From Armatimonadota bacterium (lineage in GTDB: Bacteria > Armatimonadota > Armatimonadia > Armatimonadales > Capsulimonadaceae), in assembly GCA_019239955.1 (NCBI GenBank), contig JAFAZD010000010.1:1-41300 (forward strand): a DNA stretch of 41,300 bases, read 5' to 3'. A model generated the notes under the pieces. That model had not been told where the DNA came from. It ran no database searches and saw only the letters and a list, made by a program, of their open reading frames with translations. Positions 12,721 through 35,391 of the stretch are shown in pieces (positions within the stretch are counted from its first letter, which is position 1; every line of letters starts with the position of its first letter). The position numbers and the translations under genes were made by a program.

Positions 12721-13660
12721 CGAACCAAGAGAGCCGGAAAGAGAGTCAGCGAATAAATTCGCCGCTCGGTGGCGCGGATGCCGAATGTCCGCCTGCGCGG
12801 ACAAAGAGCGCGTGTCCGCGCGGGCGGACACTCAGCCGCAGGCTCCCGAGCGGCGAATTTATTCGCTGGCGCTTCACTCGCCGGGGATTCATGCGCTGGT
12901 GATCGCCCTCGGCGTGTGTCTTCTGGCAGCACTGGGCCTCTTGACGGCTCGGCCAGCGACGCCAAGCGGCACGGTGCTGGGGACGTATGGGACGGATTTA
13001 GCGGGGCGGACGCCGCACCAGCGGTACAATGCGCGGCGGGCGGCGGCGGCCATTGACGGCGCGGTGATCGCGCCGGGGCAGACCTTCTCGTTCAGCCGCA
13101 CGGTGCGGGGGTGGAGCGCGGATCGGGGCTTCTTGAAAGCGCCGGTCAGTTACGATGGGGTGCTGGTGGACGACTACGGCGGCGGGGTCTGTCAGTGCTC
13201 CACGACGCTTTATAACGCGGCTTTGCTGGCCGGACTGCCGATTTTGGAGCGTCACCCCCACACGTTCGCGCCGGGCTACGCGCCGCCGGGGCGGGATGCC
13301 GCCGTCGCCTATTCCGGCGTGGACCTGCGCTTCCGCAACCCCTATCCCTGGCCGCTGACCGTCCGCGCCGCCGGCGAGGGGCTGATGCTGGTCTGCCGCA
13401 TCGAGGGACGGGGCCAGGAAAACCATGTCGTGCTGCGGAGCCGGGCGCTGGACTGGTTCGCCCCCAGCCCGGCGCTTATGCGGCCCGGCGCGGGCGTGGC
13501 GCGCTCGCGCTGGCACTTGACGGGGCGTGACGGTATGCGCGTGGCGATCTACCGGGACTTCTACGCGGGGGCGCAGCGTGTCCGGCATGAGGCCATCTCC
13601 GATGACACGTACCGACCCATCTCCCGCGCCGAATGGACGACGCAGACAGGGGTACGCTGA
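12707..13660 (+). CDS. VanW family protein with a palindromic element in its N-terminal region
   Basis: This 317-residue protein has one membrane helix (about 66-84, ALVIALGVCLLAALGLL) followed by the VanW domain (about 100-225), with the typical APGQTFSFSRTV, DDYGGGVCQCSTTLYNAAL and ERHPHTFAPGYAPPGRDA. VanW proteins occur in vancomycin-resistance and other envelope loci; their activity is not established, and some members are linked to peptidoglycan or L,D-transpeptidase-like chemistry. The ATG at 12707 overlaps the macroglobulin stop by 14 bases. Between the start and the helix, codons 14-54 are made of a branched palindromic repeat that is read through in frame. A start after the repeat would leave only a short lead before the helix, so the true start is uncertain. 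Confidence 0.8.
   Translation: MRRNNEPREPERESANKFAARWRGCRMSACADKERVSARADTQPQAPERRIYSLALHSPGIHALVIALGVCLLAALGLLTARPATPSGTVLGTYGTDLAGRTPHQRYNARRAAAAIDGAVIAPGQTFSFSRTVRGWSADRGFLKAPVSYDGVLVDDYGGGVCQCSTTLYNAALLAGLPILERHPHTFAPGYAPPGRDAAVAYSGVDLRFRNPYPWPLTVRAAGEGLMLVCRIEGRGQENHVVLRSRALDWFAPSPALMRPGAGVARSRWHLTGRDGMRVAIYRDFYAGAQRVRHEAISDDTYRPISRAEWTTQTGVR
12747..12868. repeat. Branched palindromic element (copy A) inside the VanW reading frame
   Basis: The outer arms at 12747-12769 and 12846-12868 are a perfect 23-bp inverted repeat containing GCGAATAAATTCGC. Inside are two hairpins, TGTCCGC-CTGC-GCGGACA (12786-12803) and TGTCCGC-GCGG-GCGGACA (12813-12830), which are also inverted repeats of each other. 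The same hairpin type and terminal palindrome recur at 25051-25157, so this is a dispersed element family. It adds about 40 Arg/Ala/Glu-rich codons to the VanW protein. Confidence 0.8.
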
Positions 13661-19478: not shown

Positions 19479-22049
19479 TTACGCAGACGCTGCGGTCCCC
19501 GGCGGCGCTCCCAGCGCCAGTTGCTGCCCGGCGGCGAGCGTCTGCGGCGGGTCGAGCGTCTGCGTCCGCCCGTCCAGCGTCACCGTGCGGAGGGTCAGCG
19601 GCGGGCCGGAGCGCCAGTCCAGGGTCGCGGGGCCGTCCGCCGGGCGGGTGAGGACGCCCCAGCCGCTGCCGGTGGAGAAGAAGGCCTCAAACTTGCCGGG
19701 GCGGTACGGGGCGAACGTCAGAGACTGCGCGACGGCGTCATATTGGAAGCCGGTGAGCGCGAGCACGGCGGCCCAGCTCGCCATCGCGCGGGCGTAGTGG
19801 TGGCCGCACTCGGCCTCGTCAAACGGGCTGCGCCGCCGGCCGTCGTAGCGGGCGCGGATCGCCGCGATGATTTTCAAGCCCTCCTCGGTCTGGCCCTCCT
19901 GCAGCATCCCGACGGCCGCCGTGTATTCAAAGCCGGTCATCACCTCGTTGTAGTACGGGAAGGGGCGGCGCGGACGGCGGCCCTTCGGGTAGGTCGCCAT
20001 CAGCAGTGCCGACTCGTGCCCCAGCGCGAACGTCCGCAGGTGGTTGAAGTGGGCGTACAGATCGGGCTGAAAGTTGTAGCGCAGGATGCTCTGTAATGTC
20101 GTCTGCACATGGCCGGGATCAAGCAAGTGGCCCAGCCCGCAGACGTGCGCCATGTACTGGCCGACGAGTTGATCCACCAGACAGCCCCCGCCGAGTTGGA
20201 GTTCCGGGTCGGCCAGGTTCGTCGCCCCCGCCCCCAGCCGCAGACCGGGGGCGATAGCGTCCGCGTCGTTCGGCGGCACGATTTGATGCTCATAGTAGTC
20301 GCCGTTGAACAGGTGGGCGTCAATCCATTGGCGGCCACGCCCAAATAGGTCGTGGCAAGTCGCAGCAAAATCATCTTCGCCCAGGGACTTTGCCATCTCC
20401 TCGGCGGCCCGCAGCGCACCCAGATACCAGACGCCCATCTGCGGATTCGGGCCGTAATACTCCACGTCCATCGTGTTGTGCTGGCAGCCTTCCATCACGC
20501 CATCTTTGTCCGCGTCCCAGCCGCCTGCGATCCAGCAGAACTCCAACGCCCGTTTTGCGTGCGGCCACAGCACCCTCAGCATCGCCTCATCGCCCGACAG
20601 CCGCCAATCACGGTACAACTTCATCAGGCAGCCCATCTGCCCATCGGCGGCGGCCACCCCGTCGCCAGCCCGGCCCAGCGGCAGACCGACGCGGAAGGAC
20701 ATCTTGCCCTGGGCGTCCGTCGCGTGGGCGAACTCCACCTCGCGCATGGCGCGGGACAGGTCCCCGAACAGGAAGGCGGTGGCCTGTTCGTAGTTCCAGA
20801 CGTGTGTGCAGGAACCGTGACAGCAGCCGCTCTTGTCGCCGCACCCCTCCCAGCCGTAGAAGCGGCCATCGGCGGTGCGGAAGCAAGTCTGGGAGCGCAG
20901 GGTGCTGAGGTTATAGAGCGCGGCCTCTTTGACAACCGGGGGCAAGTCACTGTCGCAGAACGCACGGACGAACGCCAGGGTGTCCGCTTCCAACTGCGGC
21001 AGATCGGCGGCGACGCGCCGCGCGGCGTCCCATGCATCCCGATGCTGCGTCGTGTAATAGTTGCCGATCCAGTTGGGGTTGGCCCCCCCGGCCCCCAATT
21101 CTGGGGGAGCCGGACAGCAGGACTCTGTTCCCTCCCCCCCGCTATTGGGGGCCGGGGGGCAGGGCGTCCAAGTCATGCGGTTGGGGAAATGCCAGGCCAG
21201 CAGGAAGGTGATGGACTCGGTGCCGTGCGGCGGCAGCGTCAGGCCCGCCGTCAGGGAGGCCACCGGCGCGTCCACGCCGCCTCCTTCCCGCTCTTCCAGC
21301 CGACCGTCCTCCGAGAAGTCGTCCCAGAAGTCCAGCAGCGTGTCGCCCCAACTGAGGTTGGCCCAGGCGGTGCGATACGTCACGCCTTCCGTCGCCGTCG
21401 TGCAGAGGGCGATGTTCCCCCATTGCTCGGCCTGCGGGTCCACGCCGTCCGAGCGCAGGAAGACGCCGGCCAGGCCGCCGTTCCGCCGGAACAGGTTGAC
21501 GTTCTTGCTCGCCGCACCATTCGTGCCGTCCGCGCCGATGAAATTCTGCACGGAGCCGCAGACCGAGACGGCGAGCGGCGTGTCGGTCGTGTTGGTCAGC
21601 ACGTAGCGCAGCACGGCGACCGGGAGGCCGCTCCGTTCGGCGTCGCCGGGGATGAGGGGATTGAACGCTTGCAATCGCACCTCCACCGGCACGTCGGGGT
21701 CGGACAGCAGCACCTGCCCCAGCGGATAGGCGGCCTCAAACGCCGCCCGGCGGAAGCGCGGCAGGCCGTGATTGCGGGCCGGACTGCCGAACCCGCCCTC
21801 GTACTCGGACAGGTCCAGGGGTCCTTCCAGCGCGCGGGCGACGGCCTCGCCGCCTTCGGTCCGGGCGTAGAGGGCGAAGAAGGTCTTCTCCAGCGTGAAG
21901 CCCTTGGCGGGCCGGTTGACGATCTCCCAGTCCCGCAGGTCCCCCCGCCCGCCCAGCGAGACCGTGCCCGTGCCGATGCCGCCCAGCGGCAGGGCGATCC
22001 GGGCGAGGTGGTCCTGGTCGTAGCGCGTCAGAACGGGCCACGGTGTCAT
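19479..22049 (-). CDS. Glycoside hydrolase family 116 (GBA2-like) enzyme carrying an in-frame palindromic insert
   Basis: This 856-residue cytoplasmic protein (no signal peptide) is related to bile-acid beta-glucosidase GBA2. The N-terminal beta-sandwich (about 5-280) starts with ALPLGGIGTGTVSLGGRGDL. The alpha/alpha toroid (about 350-810) contains the family block FYGWEGCGDKSGCCHGSC and THVWNYEQATAFLFGDL; E421 here is a candidate nucleophile. HNTMDVEYYGPN (D528) matches the family's acid/base region. GH116 enzymes hydrolyse beta-glucosides or beta-xylosides. The start at 22049 is preferred over the ATG at 22064 because AAAGGAG lies 5 bases upstream of it. Residues about 294-322 are encoded by a palindromic repeat. 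It is the last gene of a minus-strand carbohydrate operon, 12 bases after the GH50-like gene. Confidence 0.85.
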   Translation of the reverse strand: MTPWPVLTRYDQDHLARIALPLGGIGTGTVSLGGRGDLRDWEIVNRPAKGFTLEKTFFALYARTEGGEAVARALEGPLDLSEYEGGFGSPARNHGLPRFRRAAFEAAYPLGQVLLSDPDVPVEVRLQAFNPLIPGDAERSGLPVAVLRYVLTNTTDTPLAVSVCGSVQNFIGADGTNGAASKNVNLFRRNGGLAGVFLRSDGVDPQAEQWGNIALCTTATEGVTYRTAWANLSWGDTLLDFWDDFSEDGRLEEREGGGVDAPVASLTAGLTLPPHGTESITFLLAWHFPNRMTWTPCPPAPNSGGEGTESCCPAPPELGAGGANPNWIGNYYTTQHRDAWDAARRVAADLPQLEADTLAFVRAFCDSDLPPVVKEAALYNLSTLRSQTCFRTADGRFYGWEGCGDKSGCCHGSCTHVWNYEQATAFLFGDLSRAMREVEFAHATDAQGKMSFRVGLPLGRAGDGVAAADGQMGCLMKLYRDWRLSGDEAMLRVLWPHAKRALEFCWIAGGWDADKDGVMEGCQHNTMDVEYYGPNPQMGVWYLGALRAAEEMAKSLGEDDFAATCHDLFGRGRQWIDAHLFNGDYYEHQIVPPNDADAIAPGLRLGAGATNLADPELQLGGGCLVDQLVGQYMAHVCGLGHLLDPGHVQTTLQSILRYNFQPDLYAHFNHLRTFALGHESALLMATYPKGRRPRRPFPYYNEVMTGFEYTAAVGMLQEGQTEEGLKIIAAIRARYDGRRRSPFDEAECGHHYARAMASWAAVLALTGFQYDAVAQSLTFAPYRPGKFEAFFSTGSGWGVLTRPADGPATLDWRSGPPLTLRTVTLDGRTQTLDPPQTLAAGQQLALGAPPGTAASA
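21082..21160. repeat. Palindromic element (copy C) in frame inside the GH116 gene
   Basis: Arms at 21082-21109 and 21132-21160 form an imperfect inverted repeat of about 28 bases. Each arm is itself a hairpin (CCCCCAATTCTGGGGG on the left; CCCCCGCTATTGGGGG on the right). The element encodes a Pro/Gly/Cys-rich stretch between HFPNRMTWT and NWIGNYY of the hydrolase without breaking the frame. Confidence 0.75.
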
Positions 22050-22060
22050 GGCGTCTCCTT

Positions 22061-24163
22061 TCATTTGGACCGAAGCCGGAGGCCGGGGGCGGCGAGGTTG
22101 GCGCGGCGCATGGCGGCGATCAGGTCCCACTTGGGATGGTCGGCGACGTCCACCGTGCCGAAGGCGTAGTCCTCGCCATAAACGAGGTCCGGCCCGTGCC
22201 CGCCGCCTCGGCCGGTCAGCGGCTCGTCGCGGTACTCGAACCAGGCGAGGCCCACACAGTAGGGGTTGCGGGCGGCATCGGCGACGTAGCGTGCGTACAG
22301 GCGGCCCGCGTCGGCGTCCTCGGTGGACCAGGTGGCGTCGTAGACGCGGAAGCCGCGCTGCCCGGCGTACTGGGGCGGGAACGAGAACTCGCCGCAGAAA
22401 GTTGGCTTGTCCGTCCGGCGCATCAGCCGCGTCAGCCGGTCGTCGGCGAAGGTGAAGGCGTAGTTGTCGTAGCCGATCACGTCGCAGTGCCGGGCGATCA
22501 GGTCCCAGTCCTGCTCGTTCTCCCACCAGCCCGGCACGATCCAGAACCCGGCGTACAGGTGCTTCGGGTCCAGCGACTTGACGGTCTGCTCGATCAGCGC
22601 GTAGTAATGGTCGGCGTAGAACTGGCGTAGCGCCTCCACGTCGGCATCGGGCGGCTTGGGCGCGGCGGCATAGAGGCCGGCCCGGTCGGTCGCGGTGACG
22701 CCCCACGCCGCGGCGAGGCGGCCCACGTCGCCGCCGTAGCGCGCCGCCAGCGCCTCGTCCACCAGCGCCCGTTTGGCGGGCACGTCCCCGCCCCGCCCCA
22801 GGATGTCCCGAATCTCACCCGCCGTGATGATCTCGTCATGCTCGTTGCCGAGGGACCAGGCGACGACCGTTGGATCGTCCCGGTGGGGCGTGATCTGCGG
22901 GGCCAGCACGTCATGGAGTTTGGCCGCGGTCGCCGGGTCGAACGGGTCCGGGTGGCCTGCCAGCGTCGGCACCCCGCCCCGGTTCAGGACGGGCAGCGAG
23001 GGCAGGTCCGCCTCGATGTCGCACCACTTGCCGAAGCCCGAAAAGCCCCACGCCTTCAGCCGCTGGACCGTGCGCGTGTGGAACACATTCCGCCAGTCGC
23101 CGCCGTACTTGCGGATTAGGTTGGCCGTGGGGAACGAGACCGCCTGGACGTTCGGGCTCCAGGCGAACGGGTCGCTGCCCCACGCGGCGGCATACGGCCC
23201 GTCGCGCGGCGGCAAGCCCGCGAACAGATATTCGCGGCCCGTCACCGGCGTCCGGTCGCCGTCGGCCAGGGGCGCGGTGCAGACGCTGGTGTAGAAGCAC
23301 GGGTTCCCCTCCGGCGACAGCAGCCACCAGACGCCGTTGTGCCGGACGGTCTGGAAGACACCCGTTGCGTTGTCATGCCAGCCGGCCTTGCGCCAGCCGC
23401 CGAAGCGGTCATAAGCCGCGCGGGCGCCGGACCAGGCTTGCAGCCGACGGTCTTCCTCGGCACGGTCGCGCCGGAGGTCGGCGTCGGCGTGGGTCTTCCC
23501 CGGCCAGTCGCCGTCACGGAACTGCCCGTAACGGTCCACCAAGGGGGTTAGGGAGTGGGGGTCGGCCGGCGGGCGGGACAGGCGGAACGTCGCCTCCACG
23601 GTCAGCGCCGTGCCTGCCTTGAGATGCCAGCCCTCCACCCGGCGCGGCGCCTGCGGCTCAAACAGCATCAGAGGCGCGGACAGCGCCGGGAAGCTGAACG
23701 CCAGGGGCCGGCCCTGCCCCGGCGTCAGACGGACGGAGGCCGGGACAATCCAGTAGTCGGCGGCCCCGTGCGCCCAGTTGGGAATCTGTCCCGCCGTCAA
23801 CGCGCCCGTGTCCGGCTTCCAGCCGGACGGCTCATCCGTAATTTTCTGCCCGTCCAGCCAGAGCTGCGCCCGCCCGGTGCCGAAGACGGCCCGCACCCGG
23901 TAGTCATGATCGTACCGCCAGGCGGGGACCGATGCGAAAAAGTGCCAGTTCGTGCCGTCGGCCACGCCCAGGATGAGCTTGAGCGTCCGCAGCGTGCAGG
24001 GCGCGTCGCCCGCCGACGAGTTCTCAAAATCCAGCCAGAAGCCACGCTTGGCCCCGAAATCCGACTGGTTGGCCAGCCAGAAGCGGTTCTCCGAGGCGCG
24101 GACCACGTCCCCCGCACCCATCACCAGGATGGCGAGACACGCCCACAGGAAAAGTTTTTGCAT
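22061..24163 (-). CDS. Secreted clan GH-A hydrolase, GH50 (beta-agarase)-like
   Basis: This 700-residue protein has a signal peptide (about 1-24, LFLWACLAILVMGAGDVVRA), an N-terminal carbohydrate-binding-like beta-sandwich (about 25-210) and a TIM-barrel domain (about 220-690). Barrel landmarks are GVWWLLSPEGNPCFYTSV, RLKAWGFSGFGKWCD, VVAWSLGNEHDEI with the likely acid/base E441, and PTFCGEFSFPP with the likely nucleophile E592. The order and wording of these motifs resemble GH50 agarases and relatives, but the true substrate could be another beta-galactoside or plant or algal polysaccharide. It is encoded 26 bases after the YHYH gene. Its stop lies 12 bases before the GH116 start, so secreted and intracellular sugar cleavage are probably coupled. 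Confidence 0.75.
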   Translation of the reverse strand: MQKLFLWACLAILVMGAGDVVRASENRFWLANQSDFGAKRGFWLDFENSSAGDAPCTLRTLKLILGVADGTNWHFFASVPAWRYDHDYRVRAVFGTGRAQLWLDGQKITDEPSGWKPDTGALTAGQIPNWAHGAADYWIVPASVRLTPGQGRPLAFSFPALSAPLMLFEPQAPRRVEGWHLKAGTALTVEATFRLSRPPADPHSLTPLVDRYGQFRDGDWPGKTHADADLRRDRAEEDRRLQAWSGARAAYDRFGGWRKAGWHDNATGVFQTVRHNGVWWLLSPEGNPCFYTSVCTAPLADGDRTPVTGREYLFAGLPPRDGPYAAAWGSDPFAWSPNVQAVSFPTANLIRKYGGDWRNVFHTRTVQRLKAWGFSGFGKWCDIEADLPSLPVLNRGGVPTLAGHPDPFDPATAAKLHDVLAPQITPHRDDPTVVAWSLGNEHDEIITAGEIRDILGRGGDVPAKRALVDEALAARYGGDVGRLAAAWGVTATDRAGLYAAAPKPPDADVEALRQFYADHYYALIEQTVKSLDPKHLYAGFWIVPGWWENEQDWDLIARHCDVIGYDNYAFTFADDRLTRLMRRTDKPTFCGEFSFPPQYAGQRGFRVYDATWSTEDADAGRLYARYVADAARNPYCVGLAWFEYRDEPLTGRGGGHGPDLVYGEDYAFGTVDVADHPKWDLIAAMRRANLAAPGLRLRSK

Positions 24164-24189: not shown

Positions 24190-24972
24190 TTACGGTGGCC
24201 CGAACGGCGGGGGCGGCCCGAAGGGAGGCGGCGGGCCGAACGGCGGGGGTGGGCCGCCGGGACCGCTGCCTGCGCCGGGGTGGTCAAAGTTGCTCGTCTC
24301 CACGACGCCATGATACCCGCCGAGGATGTACGGATAGCCCGCCGTCACATGGTAGTGGTAGCCGCGAACTTTGTCCCAGTGGCCGTTGCACGAGTCCAAG
24401 TCCTTCGGCGGGCGGCCGTCCTCGCCGTTCGGGCCATAGATGGGAAAGCCGTCAAAGGCATAGCCGATCAGCGGCGAATGCTGGCCCTTCGGGTCCTTGA
24501 ACGGCGAATGGATGCAGACCGGGTACTTGTGATAGTGGTAGCGCCCCTGGGGGTCGGGATGGCCGCAGCACGAGTCGAACGTCTCTGCCTTCACCGCGTC
24601 CTGCCCATTGGCGTTGTACTGGTTGTAGAAGGGAATCCCGTTGACGGCCACCCCGATGGGGCCGAAGGGCGTCCGGGTGATCTGGGCGACGTAACGCGGA
24701 TGGCGCGGGATGACGAATCGATAGTGCTGCTTCAGAATGAGGTTCGGGTTGCTGGCGTTGGGAAAGTCCCCATGGGGATGATCGGGGATGCCGTCACTTT
24801 GCACGATCATGTCGTCTTTGGTCCACGTGACCTTGACATTGGGATGGAACGGGTTCTGACCGGCGGCAGCCGGGTTTTGAACGGCCCCGACCCGAGCGGG
24901 TGTGACATCCGACAGGAAGAGGACTGCCAGGCAGAGCATTGCCATGCCAAGACGCAGAAACTTGGGTGTCAT
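24190..24972 (-). CDS. Secreted YHYH-domain protein with a Gly/Pro/Phe repeat tail
   Basis: This 260-residue protein starts with a signal peptide (MTPKFLRLGMAMLCLAVLFL). It then carries a YHYH domain (about 50-225) with two family motifs, GRYHYHKYPVCIHSPF and GYHYHVTAGYPYILGGYHG, and paired Cys (DSCCGHPD, DSCNGHWD). The His-rich motifs suggest metal binding; the domain's function is not established. The tail is a tandem (GPPPPF)n repeat ending GPP, encoded by GC-rich tandem DNA at 24190-24245. ATG 24972 is the likely start, but the ribosome site is weak. It is the first gene of the operon with the GH50-like and GH116 hydrolases, so an accessory role in polysaccharide use is plausible. Confidence 0.75.
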   Translation of the reverse strand: MTPKFLRLGMAMLCLAVLFLSDVTPARVGAVQNPAAAGQNPFHPNVKVTWTKDDMIVQSDGIPDHPHGDFPNASNPNLILKQHYRFVIPRHPRYVAQITRTPFGPIGVAVNGIPFYNQYNANGQDAVKAETFDSCCGHPDPQGRYHYHKYPVCIHSPFKDPKGQHSPLIGYAFDGFPIYGPNGEDGRPPKDLDSCNGHWDKVRGYHYHVTAGYPYILGGYHGVVETSNFDHPGAGSGPGGPPPPFGPPPPFGPPPPFGPP

Positions 24973-25050
24973 GCCGCCCTGTTCGCCACCGGCCAGCGGA
25001 TTTCCTTGTTCGCCTGGCGCGATGCCAGGGGCAATCAGTTCTCGTGCCGG

Positions 25051-25157
25051 GCGAATGAATTCGCGGCTTGGGCAATGCGCTATCGGCCTTCGCCGATGCA
25101 GAGCAACGATGTCCGCGAAGGCGGACAGTGCATTGAATAGCCGCGACTTCAGGCGCC
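25051..25157. repeat. Branched palindromic element (copy B) upstream of the YHYH operon
   Basis: Outer arms near TGAATTCGCGGCT (25056-25068) and AGCCGCGACTTCA (25139-25151) match at 12 of 13 positions. A middle stem CAATGC/GCATTG and two hairpins, ATCGGC-CTTC-GCCGAT and TGTCCGC-GAAG-GCGGACA (25110-25127), lie inside. The last hairpin and the GCGAAT.AATTCGC end match copy A at 12747-12868. It sits in the leader or promoter region of the minus-strand operon. Confidence 0.7.
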
Positions 25158-25235
25158 AGGCAAAAACTGAATGACTCCGGGTGTCGCACCTCCTTCGCCG
25201 GGCCGGCCATCCGCCCAGCGATTTTTCTGCCGGGG

Positions 25236-25265
25236 TTGACAAACGGCGGGCGGCGCGGCTATACT
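25236..25265 (+). promoter_or_regulatory. Promoter of the ABC exporter, followed by a ~335-base leader
   Basis: TTGACA (25236-25241) and TATACT (25260-25265) are perfect or near-perfect boxes spaced by 18 bases. The start codon lies at 25607, leaving an unusually long leader. The leader contains a possible short frame starting at 25322 and a small hairpin GGCACA...TGTGCC around a T6 run near 25555. Attenuation is possible but not shown. Confidence 0.7.
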
Positions 25266-25606
25266 CTATTCCGTTCGCCCCGGCGGACGCCATTCTGACA
25301 GGAAGGAAGCGGCCCTTGACGATGATTCCTCGCATCATGTTTGAGACGGCAGTACAGGCAGACGCCTGGCGTGCGTCCCGGTGGGCCGGCTTCGTCCTGC
25401 TTCCCCCGGACAGCGCCCCACAGGCCCATTCCGTCTGCACCGCGTCCACCGGAGAACGTCGCCGCTAACACAGCGTCCCCGAAAAGCAGCGTTCCTCCGA
25501 CCGGCCCCGGTGCTCCCTTCGCTTTCCCGATGCGAGGCACACCGAGGCTTTTTTGTGCCCGCACGACAGAACTGACACTCGGCTTTGCACGACGCAAGGA
25601 GGTTTC

Positions 25607-30098: not shown

Positions 30099-30662
30099 GT
30101 GGAGAGATGCGAGGTTCAAGCACTGATTGACCGCCTGGCGGAGCGCCACACCGACTGGACGGTGTTCGAGGCGCTGGCCCGACACATCGTCCGCGACGAA
30201 CACGCTCTGCGGGCGGTGCTGGACGCCATCACTTCGCATCCCAACCCGAAGGTGCGGCGGCTGTGCGCGGACCTGATGGACCACCACGGAGATGACCGTT
30301 GTGTGGAGACGCTGCGGCAGGCCCTGCATGACCCCGTGCCGCGCGTCCGCCGCCAGGCAGTCCACTCCTTGAGCTGCCAGCGGTGCAAGACCTGCGCCCT
30401 GACCGTGGGCGTCGTCCCGGTCCTGACCGACGTGGCGCTCACGGACGAGAACATGTGGGTGCGCCGCGAGGCCGTCTGCGCCCTGGCGTTCCAGCCGCGC
30501 GACGCTCGCGCCGCCGCCGCGCTGCGTGTCCTCCTCGCCCGCGAGACCGACCCGAAGATCACCAGCGAGGTTCACGGGGCGCTGCGGATCCATGACGAGG
30601 AGTACCGCCGGGCGAGCAACGCGGCCGCCAGGGTGCGTCAGCAGAGAATTGATAGGATGTAG
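30099..30662 (+). CDS. HEAT-repeat protein with a Cys cluster
   Basis: This 187-residue all-helical protein has roughly four HEAT/PBS-lyase-like repeats. Visible repeats are VLDAITSHPNPKVRRLCADLM, LRQALHDPVPRVRRQAVHSL, LTDVALTDENMWVRREAVCAL and LRVLLARETDPKITSEVHGAL. A conserved-looking LSCQRCKTCAL (about 100-110) may bind metal or a cluster. GTG 30099 is preferred, with GGGAGA upstream, because the homologous start wording (LIDRLAERHTDWTVFEALARHI) follows at once. An open frame continues upstream to 29964 but only through repeat sequence. It is probably a protein-protein interaction module. It sits between a defence-like pair and a radical SAM gene. Confidence 0.7.
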   Translation: MERCEVQALIDRLAERHTDWTVFEALARHIVRDEHALRAVLDAITSHPNPKVRRLCADLMDHHGDDRCVETLRQALHDPVPRVRRQAVHSLSCQRCKTCALTVGVVPVLTDVALTDENMWVRREAVCALAFQPRDARAAAALRVLLARETDPKITSEVHGALRIHDEEYRRASNAAARVRQQRIDRM

Positions 30663-30705
30663 GGGCTTGGCATGGCAAGCCCCTACATCACCCGCCAAGC
30701 CCCTC
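30661..30705 (+). promoter_or_regulatory. Alternative stem-loops before the radical SAM gene
   Basis: AGGGGCTTG (30661-30669) can pair with CAAGCCCCT at 30676-30684 (6-base loop) or with an identical CAAGCCCCT at 30697-30705, directly before the ribosome site GGAGG (30707-30711). The choice of partner could expose or mask the ribosome site, since CCTCC of the second arm region is complementary to GGAGG. It may equally be a terminator of the HEAT gene. Confidence 0.45.
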
Positions 30706-33433: not shown

Positions 33434-34585
33434 TTAACGGGGTCTGGTGCGGTCCACCGTCTCGTCCCTGTCCAGCATCTCGCTACGGTGATCCGTGACG
33501 TCGGCGGCCTGCTGCACGTCGCCGGTCTTCTCGACGCGCAGTTCCTCACGCTGGACGGAGCCGGTCAGGTGCTGGGTCTCCGTGACCTGCCGCTTGCCGA
33601 TCTCGACCTCCTCGCGCACCACCGGGGTCTTCTCAATCGTGACCTGCTCCTCCATCACCGGGATGCGAATCTCCTGCTCGGTCTGGCGGAAGTCCGTGTT
33701 ACCAGTGACGGGGGTGCCGACCGGGCGGCGCTCGACGACGACCTCCTCGCGGGTGACGGGCACCTCGATGGTCTTGGTCTCGGTGATGATGTCCTTGTGG
33801 ACGTGGACCTCGCCCGCCGAGACCCGCTGCGTACTCGCGCGCAGCTCCTCCTCGCGGAGTTGGATGCGCTCCGGGGACTCCCCCAACTCGCGGGCCGTGC
33901 CGGTGGACGCGGTCGTGCCGTAAACGCCCGCGTCCGCCGGGGCGGTTCCGGCGGCGTCCAGGCGCGCCGGGGCGGGCGGGACGTAGTCCGTCCGGGTCGC
34001 CTCCACGCCGGAGCCGACCGGGGCCGGGGCCGTGTCCACGAAGTCGGTCTGGGCGGCGGTGTTGCCCCGGTAATCCGAGGGCCCCTGCACGTCATCCGCG
34101 CCGTCGCGCTCCAGGATGCGGCGGACCTCGGCGGCCTGGGCATCGTTGGCGTGGACGCCGATCAGGATGCCGCCGGCGCCGAGGCCGGTCTCATACTCGC
34201 GGGCGCGGTCCTCCGGGATGCCCGCGCCGACCAGGCCGCCGAGGATGCCGCCGGTCAGACCGCCCGCGCCCGCCCCGACCAGTGCCGCCGCCAGCGGCCC
34301 GACCACCAGCGGGGCCGCCAGGCCCCCGGTGGCGGCGACGGCGGCGACGCTGCCGGTGGCGGTCAGGGCGGCGATGATCGCCCCCAGCGTCCCGCCGATG
34401 CCCGCGCCGACGCCCGCGCCCTCGGCGGCCTTGGTGCCGGTCCCCTCGGCGAAGTCACGGGCCTGGCCCGTGTCGTTCATCATGACGCTGATGTCGTTCT
34501 GGGAGTAGCCCAGGTTCTGCAGATCAGTGACCGCCCGCTCGGCCTCGGCGCGGTCGTGGAAAAGTCCGGTGATCAAATCGGCCAT
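33434..34585 (-). CDS. YsnF/DUF2382 stress protein with glycine-rich hydrophobic segment
   Basis: This 383-residue protein has an N-terminal general-stress (GSP17M/YflT-like) domain (about 1-50, ITGLFHDRAEAERAVTDLQNLGY). A long Gly/Ala-rich hydrophobic segment (about 58-125) resembles glycine-zipper membrane inserts, and GVHANDAQAAEVRRILERDGAD follows. The C-terminal DUF2382 (YsnF/AvaK) domain (about 245-370) is made of charged repeats: IQLREEEL, VHVHKDIITETKTIEVPVTREE, VEKRPV-type strands and VVREEVEIGKRQVTETQ. The family is linked to general stress and desiccation responses; the mechanism is unknown. It is the second gene of a two-gene minus-strand operon, with AGGAGG upstream of ATG 34585. 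Confidence 0.82.
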   Translation of the reverse strand: MADLITGLFHDRAEAERAVTDLQNLGYSQNDISVMMNDTGQARDFAEGTGTKAAEGAGVGAGIGGTLGAIIAALTATGSVAAVAATGGLAAPLVVGPLAAALVGAGAGGLTGGILGGLVGAGIPEDRAREYETGLGAGGILIGVHANDAQAAEVRRILERDGADDVQGPSDYRGNTAAQTDFVDTAPAPVGSGVEATRTDYVPPAPARLDAAGTAPADAGVYGTTASTGTARELGESPERIQLREEELRASTQRVSAGEVHVHKDIITETKTIEVPVTREEVVVERRPVGTPVTGNTDFRQTEQEIRIPVMEEQVTIEKTPVVREEVEIGKRQVTETQHLTGSVQREELRVEKTGDVQQAADVTDHRSEMLDRDETVDRTRPR

Positions 34586-34611: not shown

Positions 34612-35391
34612 TCAGCGGCGGTTCCCCGTGCGGTCCACGGTCTCGTCGGTGTCCAGCATGTCGGCGCGGTGGTCGGTCGCATTCTCGACGCGGACATCGC
34701 CGGTGTTCTCGATGCGCGCCTCCTCGCGGCGGACGGTGTCGGACAGGCGCTCGGTCTCCGTCACGGACCGCTTGCCGACCTCGACCTCCTCGCGCACGAC
34801 GGTCTGCTTCTCCAGCGTCGCCTCCTCGCGCGACAGCGGCACGACAATGTCGGCGGTGTCCTGCCCGATGGGGGCCGCGGAGGCCGCCTGGCCGGTGACG
34901 GGGCGGCGCTCGATCACGAGCTCCTCGTGGGTCACGGGCACGTCAATGGTCTTGGTCTCGGTGACAACATCCTTATGGACTCGTACCTCGCCGGCCTGAA
35001 CCCGCTGCTTGCGGGCGGTCAGCTGCTCCTCTCGGAGCTGGATGCGCTGGACGCCCTCCTGCGCGAGCGCCGGGTTGACGCGGTCGCTGATGTCCGCCCC
35101 GTCGCGTTCCAGAATGGCGCGGGACTCGGAGGCGCGGGACCCGGTGACGGTGACGGTGTAGCCGCCCGCATGGCCGGCGGCGTAGTCGGCATCGGCATTC
35201 GTGCGGTTCAGGTAGGACGCGCTTTCCAGGTAGGGCTGAGAGCCGGCGTACTGGCCGGTCGCGGCGCTACGATAAGGCGCGAGGTCGATCTCGTTCTCGT
35301 TGAAGCCGGCGGCAATCAGGTCACGGACGGCGCGCTCGGCACTGGCCCGGTCGGCGAAGTAGCCGGCGATGGCATTCTGGGTGGTAGTCAT
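34612..35391 (-). CDS. YsnF/DUF2382 stress protein (short paralogue)
   Basis: This 259-residue paralogue of the downstream gene has the same N-terminal stress domain (IAGYFADRASAERAVRDLIAAGF), then a Tyr/Ala-rich linker and a nucleotide-like YTVTVTGSRASESRAILERDGAD. The DUF2382 domain (about 115-240) has IQLREEQLTARKQRVQAGEVRVH and VVREEVEVGKRSVTETERL. It lacks the glycine-zipper segment, so it is probably soluble while its partner is membrane-associated. The start is supported by AAAGGAG just before ATG 35391. It is the first gene of the operon. The upstream region has an operator-like repeat at 35454-35471. Confidence 0.82.
   Translation of the reverse strand: MTTTQNAIAGYFADRASAERAVRDLIAAGFNENEIDLAPYRSAATGQYAGSQPYLESASYLNRTNADADYAAGHAGGYTVTVTGSRASESRAILERDGADISDRVNPALAQEGVQRIQLREEQLTARKQRVQAGEVRVHKDVVTETKTIDVPVTHEELVIERRPVTGQAASAAPIGQDTADIVVPLSREEATLEKQTVVREEVEVGKRSVTETERLSDTVRREEARIENTGDVRVENATDHRADMLDTDETVDRTGNRR

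Follow-up and report, generated by a model that had tools for sequence, protein, structure and literature searches.

The 41,300-nucleotide stretch of Armatimonadota DNA analysed here (the window) carries a gene for a GH116/DUF608 glycoside hydrolase in which a short, nearly palindromic segment is read through as protein. The locus raises the question of whether this segment is a copy of a dispersed repeat that has come to encode part of an enzyme, or an ordinary Pro/Gly-rich loop whose palindrome is a coincidence of GC-rich codons.

An in-frame palindrome in a glycoside hydrolase gene

A sequence-only reading of the window had proposed a palindromic element inside the gene, with a hairpin in both arms and the frame kept, and each of these points is borne out. 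The near-palindrome spans 79 nt (21082-21160, with the ends GCCCCCCCGG...CCGGGGGGC) and consists of two inverted half-units, each of which forms a hairpin (Table 1); on the plus strand it reads GCCCCCCCGGCCCCCAATTCTGGGGGAGCCGG, then the spacer, then CTCCCCCCCGCTATTGGGGGCCGGGGGGC. Its arms (21084-21114 and 21129-21159) are 81% complementary and are separated by 14 nt, and the element strand folds better than its shuffles both as RNA (z -2.5) and as DNA (z -4.5; none of 200 shuffles folds as well). The start had been placed correctly at 21082; the end had been put at 21168, about 8 nt too far. The minus-strand open reading frame stays open across the palindrome, and the 79 nt supply some 27 in-frame residues of the protein; altogether 30 residues, PCPPAPNSGGEGTESCCPAPPELGAGGANP, separate HFPNRMTWT from NWIGNYY.

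Table 1. Features of the element and its host gene (window coordinates).
Feature	Position	Strand	Remarks
Host gene, GH116/DUF608 glycoside hydrolase, 861 aa, intact	19482-22064	-	open reading frame and Pfam domains
Full (dimeric) palindromic element	21082-21160	-	encodes roughly residues 302-328 of the GH116 protein
Half-unit with exact core CCCCCAGAATTGGGGG (core 21092-21107)	21082-21114	-	gene reading PAPPELGAGG
Spacer between half-units	21115-21128		encodes ESCC
Degenerate inverted second half-unit (core 21136-21151, 3 mismatches)	21129-21160	-	gene reading PPAPNSGG

The host frame has no internal stop, and its product matches the Pfam families Glyco_hydr_116N (E 3.5e-59) and DUF608 (catalytic domain, E 6e-37). 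Judged by alignment scores, the better label for the host is DUF608/arabinofuranosidase-like rather than plain GH116 glucosidase, because the nearest solved relative, the exo-beta-D-arabinofuranosidase 8ic6, scores 481 bits and the classical GH116 beta-glucosidases score 97. The segment lies in a loop, from FPNR to GN[YH]Y, that is anywhere between about 10 and 70 residues long across 76 homologues and falls into a short and a long class. The best GH116 relative, labelled Armatimonadetes (L101), matches at 72%. By regular expression, the loop measures 38 residues in the window protein and 33 in the nearest relative, a net gain of +5, and a clean empty site is therefore not demonstrable for this gene. 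Thus, the expectation that GH116 homologues would lack the insert holds for the element sequence, which they do not carry, and fails as a simple absence, the loop often being filled by unrelated inserts.

Cysteines are common in the long loops of these homologues, with at least two in 21 of 45 and none at all in the 31 short loops; the Cys-bearing long loops of this subfamily are possibly metal-binding or disulphide loops. A CC motif occurs in 13 of the 45 long loops and is also encoded by the spacer of the element. We considered whether the spacer is native loop sequence and set this aside: the half-units around it are as far apart as in other dimers, and the spacer matches, in part only, the spacers of other dimers with 44-nt spacing. 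The shared CC is left as a coincidence without explanation.

An AlphaFold2 model of the protein (28 sequences; mean pLDDT 76, pTM 0.85) places residues 299-331 outside any secondary structure, with ordered strands on either side, and pLDDT falls below 50 at residues 307-327. The predicted structure fits a disordered linker loop for the element segment.

A dispersed family of half-units and inverted dimers

The 5.0-Mb source genome (a 409-contig draft with 5.6% contamination) contains 87 perfect matches to the 16-nt core CCCCCAGAATTGGGGG, or 202 when one mismatch is allowed, and 0 matches to the reversed core; the element is therefore not a product of chance. BLAST with the window copy likewise returned full-length and half copies on many contigs. 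The sequence-only reading had proposed searching the genome for further copies and counting those inside genes, and both turn out to be numerous. This count decides against the ordinary-loop reading, in which the segment is a Pro/Gly-rich GH116 loop and the palindrome an accident of codon usage: the loop is indeed naturally variable and often Cys/Gly-rich in homologues, but an identical core recurs in unrelated genes and intergenic DNA, and this explanation, refuted by the genome count, is almost certainly wrong.

The aligned exact-core copies give the consensus TCCGGCT-CCCCC-AGAATT-GGGGG-C[CG]GGGGGG. Of 110 elements examined in the source genome, 84 are single units and 26 are dimers, in which two inverted units flank a spacer, mostly at a core-to-core distance of 44-50 nt, and which end in the inverted repeats GCCCCCC...GGGGGGC. 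The palindrome described in the sequence-only reading is thus real as a full dimer, but the smallest dispersed unit is the half-palindrome. Neither a GTAG nor a CGTC terminus appears in the exact-core position table, whose sides show TCCGGCT and C[CG]GGGGGG. Direct repeats at the edges, as a target-site duplication would leave, are no commoner than in re-paired flanks in the source genome.

Among 291 genomes of the phylum, the exact core is present in eight, the source genome included. Only one other, G018, is rich in it, with 32 exact copies; it belongs to a different family within the same order. Six more hold 1-3 copies each. In G018, 26 of 41 elements are dimers and edge repeats are only marginally commoner than in re-paired flanks. 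As a separate observation, the G018 dimers (loci L250-L284) are longer (about 86 nt between cores), lie mostly between genes and are often positioned centrally within palindromic targets; flanks symmetric at 9 or more of 12 bases surround 6 of the 26, compared with 0 of the re-paired flanks. No palindromic targets were seen around dimers in the source genome. The viral contigs, phages and plasmids searched gave no match to the element, Rfam returned only chance matches far under threshold, and a literature search for the letters of the core found no paper with CCCCCAGAATTGGGGG. The family, of a REP/RPE-like kind and from a poorly studied phylum, was thus not found described in the papers searched.

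An inverted pair of REP-like units that forms hairpins around a spacer also raises the possibility of a REPIN mobilised by a RAYT transposase, and the genome holds 16 matches to Y1 transposases. Elements are not enriched near these genes, however: they lie near 3 of 15 Y1 loci in the source genome, about what their density predicts, and in G018 the contigs that carry its two Y1 genes have none. Single units far outnumber dimers in the source genome, over a third of the copies lie within genes, and the sole Y1 gene closely flanked by palindromes has a different one, GCGAAT-ATTCGC. We regard RAYT mobilisation of this element as very unlikely. An autonomous parent element was sought as well and rejected, since inverted cores 300-3500 nt apart flank ordinary genes, such as an ORF that resembles alanine racemase by sequence.

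The window holds other repeats besides this family. A second palindrome, GTAGGGGC-(N12-13)-GCCCCTAC (GTAG...CTAC; 30659-30686), is found 72 times genome-wide, the reversed control giving 0; the window copy supplies the TAG stop of the upstream ORF, and others appear to be translated, as AQHGAPLQNAA in MutL (L203) and AQHAAPLQNA in an FHA protein (L190). A third, with the core GCGAATNNATTCGC, lies at 12742-12873 and 25051-25064, forming an inverted pair in the window; in locus L097, copies at 1386 and 1925 closely flank a Y1 transposase gene on both sides, a classic RAYT-with-REP arrangement. An 18-nt tandem repeat (24190-24262) encodes the PPPPFG-rich C-terminus of the minus-strand ORF 24190-25449, and two blocks in direct orientation, 33516-33870 and 34694-35048 (74-81% identical, 1178 nt apart), are probably a tandem gene duplication.

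Reading frame, hosts and net length of the genic copies

To place the copies relative to genes, every exact-core locus was fetched, a codon model was trained on these loci, and coding context was scored over 240 nt on each side of the element, with the element itself left out. By this census, whose gene calls come from our own codon model with a Pfam or alignment check for part of the genes, 40 of 110 elements lie in frame and without a stop between flanks that code in one frame. At the same loci, random positions scored in frame in 54% of cases, simulated frameshifting insertions of 32 nt in 1% and insertions of 33 nt in 56%. Set against the 1% and 54%, the 40 of 110 indicate that the in-frame copies are real, at about two-thirds of the density at random positions.

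The in-frame hosts are intact and often essential genes; DNA polymerase I (PolA) is among the hosts. Pfam domains around many of the elements identify MutL, PolA, PriA, ValRS (with two elements), CoaBC, SecDF, a uroporphyrinogen-III synthase fusion, a 2-oxoacid dehydrogenase E2, MutS2, ThyX, Lnt, BirA and a nucleotidyl transferase; DXS, MurF and AlaRS were recognised from their sequences and then aligned with relatives.

None of the six frames of the consensus unit contains a stop, yet the genic copies do not use them evenly. Among 31 single in-frame units, PAPPELGAGG is read in 16 and PPAPNSGGAG in 8, followed by SGSPRIGGGG (4), APPPPILGEP (2), RLPQNWGRGG (1) and PPRPQFWGSR (0), so that the two Pro/Gly/Ala-rich frames hold 24 of the 31 (p = 6e-7 if the pair is fixed in advance, about 1e-5 allowing for the choice of pair); 11 of 12 dimers encode PPAPNSGG..PAPPELGAGG. 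Such uneven use of the six open frames suggests that the encoded peptide is under selection, and it is the pattern expected if flexible, non-hydrophobic peptides are favoured.

Orthologues from the same family and order were gathered by two concatenated-query searches, whose E-values are not comparable with single-gene ones. Same-family relatives of CoaBC, DXS, MurF, PriA, BirA, AlaRS, Lnt and others, up to 82% identical, do not carry the element sequence. A half-unit encodes about 10.7 residues, and the net gains over relatives, which are roughly 60-80% identical and have variable loops, are mixed. They amount to +13 residues in CoaBC, +10 to +13 in PolA, about +15 in Lnt, +16 to +21 in BirA (two units), and +13 to +36 in PriA (+23 to +28 against its two nearest relatives), and to +5 to +12 in MurF, +3 in DXS, +2 to +4 in the nucleotidyl transferase, about -2 and +2 at the two ValRS elements (nearest relative), -3 to +14 in SecDF (+1 against one relative) and -2 to +7 in AlaRS. 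Gains are often smaller than the unit, so that in several genes the native loop has shrunk by roughly what the element added; as far as these alignments can tell, the element often takes the place of a variable loop with little net gain in length.

Small gains, such as those of DXS, ValRS and GH116, are not explained by clean insertion. They could instead reflect spread by short-patch replacement, in which template switching or gene conversion at hairpins overwrites the native loop and no transposable unit is inserted. The net change is often far below the 32-nt unit (SecDF and the nucleotidyl transferase belong here too), and neither a clear target-site duplication nor transposase linkage was found. 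CoaBC, Lnt, BirA and PriA, however, show near-full gains, the same picture would arise if insertion were followed by the loss of redundant loop sequence, and the loops of the relatives compared are variable. We hold replacement to be rather unlikely as the route of spread; its stronger form, in which a palindromic unit rewrites the surface loops of essential proteins genome-wide with one stereotyped Pro/Gly/Ala peptide at near-constant length, seems quite unlikely.

The GH116 insert is instead very probably a copy of a non-autonomous palindromic family of the REP/RPE type, spread through the genome as half-units and dimers and tolerated in loops. On this model the family, presumably mobile, would have spread as half-units of about 32 nt and inverted dimers of about 79-85 nt that land all over the genome, and genic copies would survive when the frame is kept and the site is a tolerant surface loop or linker. 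Surviving copies would then be read in frame, in host proteins that are presumably expressed, as a flexible, non-hydrophobic Pro/Gly/Ala peptide that the hosts may tolerate neutrally. The GH116 copy would fill the length-variable loop that joins the N-terminal beta domain to the catalytic domain, and the enzyme most likely keeps its activity.

Coding copies make up about a third of those examined, in hosts such as DNA polymerase I, PriA, ValRS, AlaRS, CoaBC and DXS. They form a natural set of in-frame loop insertions within one genome, a model for mobile DNA donating protein segments that could also show which reading frames selection tolerates, and the mixed net gains raise the testable question of insertion versus replacement.

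Relation to known palindromic repeats

Bacterial MITEs resemble the family in having terminal inverted repeats, in lacking coding capacity of their own and in being dispersed. Typical MITEs carry a target duplication; in the Armatimonadota family none was detected, nor did the flanks examined contain a parent insertion sequence. REPINs, which share with our dimers the hairpin-forming inverted REP pair and spacer, are defined in extragenic space, adjoining RAYTs (Bertels and Rainey 2011, PMC3116915), whereas the Armatimonadota copies are often intragenic and away from Y1 genes, and in the source genome dimers are not their predominant unit.

The GTAG/CGTC-tagged REPs are palindromes of 20-40 bp that occur as singles and inverted dimers and are intragenic in Opitutus terrae, Thauera and others, where dimers encode 20-30 aa and the genes affected code for DNA polymerase I and tRNA synthetases, among others (Di Nocera et al. 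2013, PMC3733652). The present family is like them in its singles and inverted dimers, its genic copies and its PolA and tRNA synthetase hosts, and unlike them in a consensus without a GTAG or CGTC end and in the absence of a transposase link. Palindromic targets have been described for some REP families (PMC3733652), which sit inside them as the G018 dimers do.

In Rickettsia, many copies of RPE-1, RPE-4 and RPE-6 are carried in frame by ORFs whose products are likely functional (PMC3733652). The resemblance to these elements suggested by the sequence-only reading holds for dispersal and in-frame genic copies, as a likeness of organisation. Like the Rickettsia RPEs, the Armatimonadota family is a dispersed, multicopy palindrome found in frame in intact, conserved genes, those for DNA replication and repair included, and absent from the orthologues of relatives; unlike them, it resides in a high-GC genome, its dominant form is a 32-nt half-unit, and it often adds little length. 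It is, in sum, an untagged addition to the intragenic REP/RPE kind.
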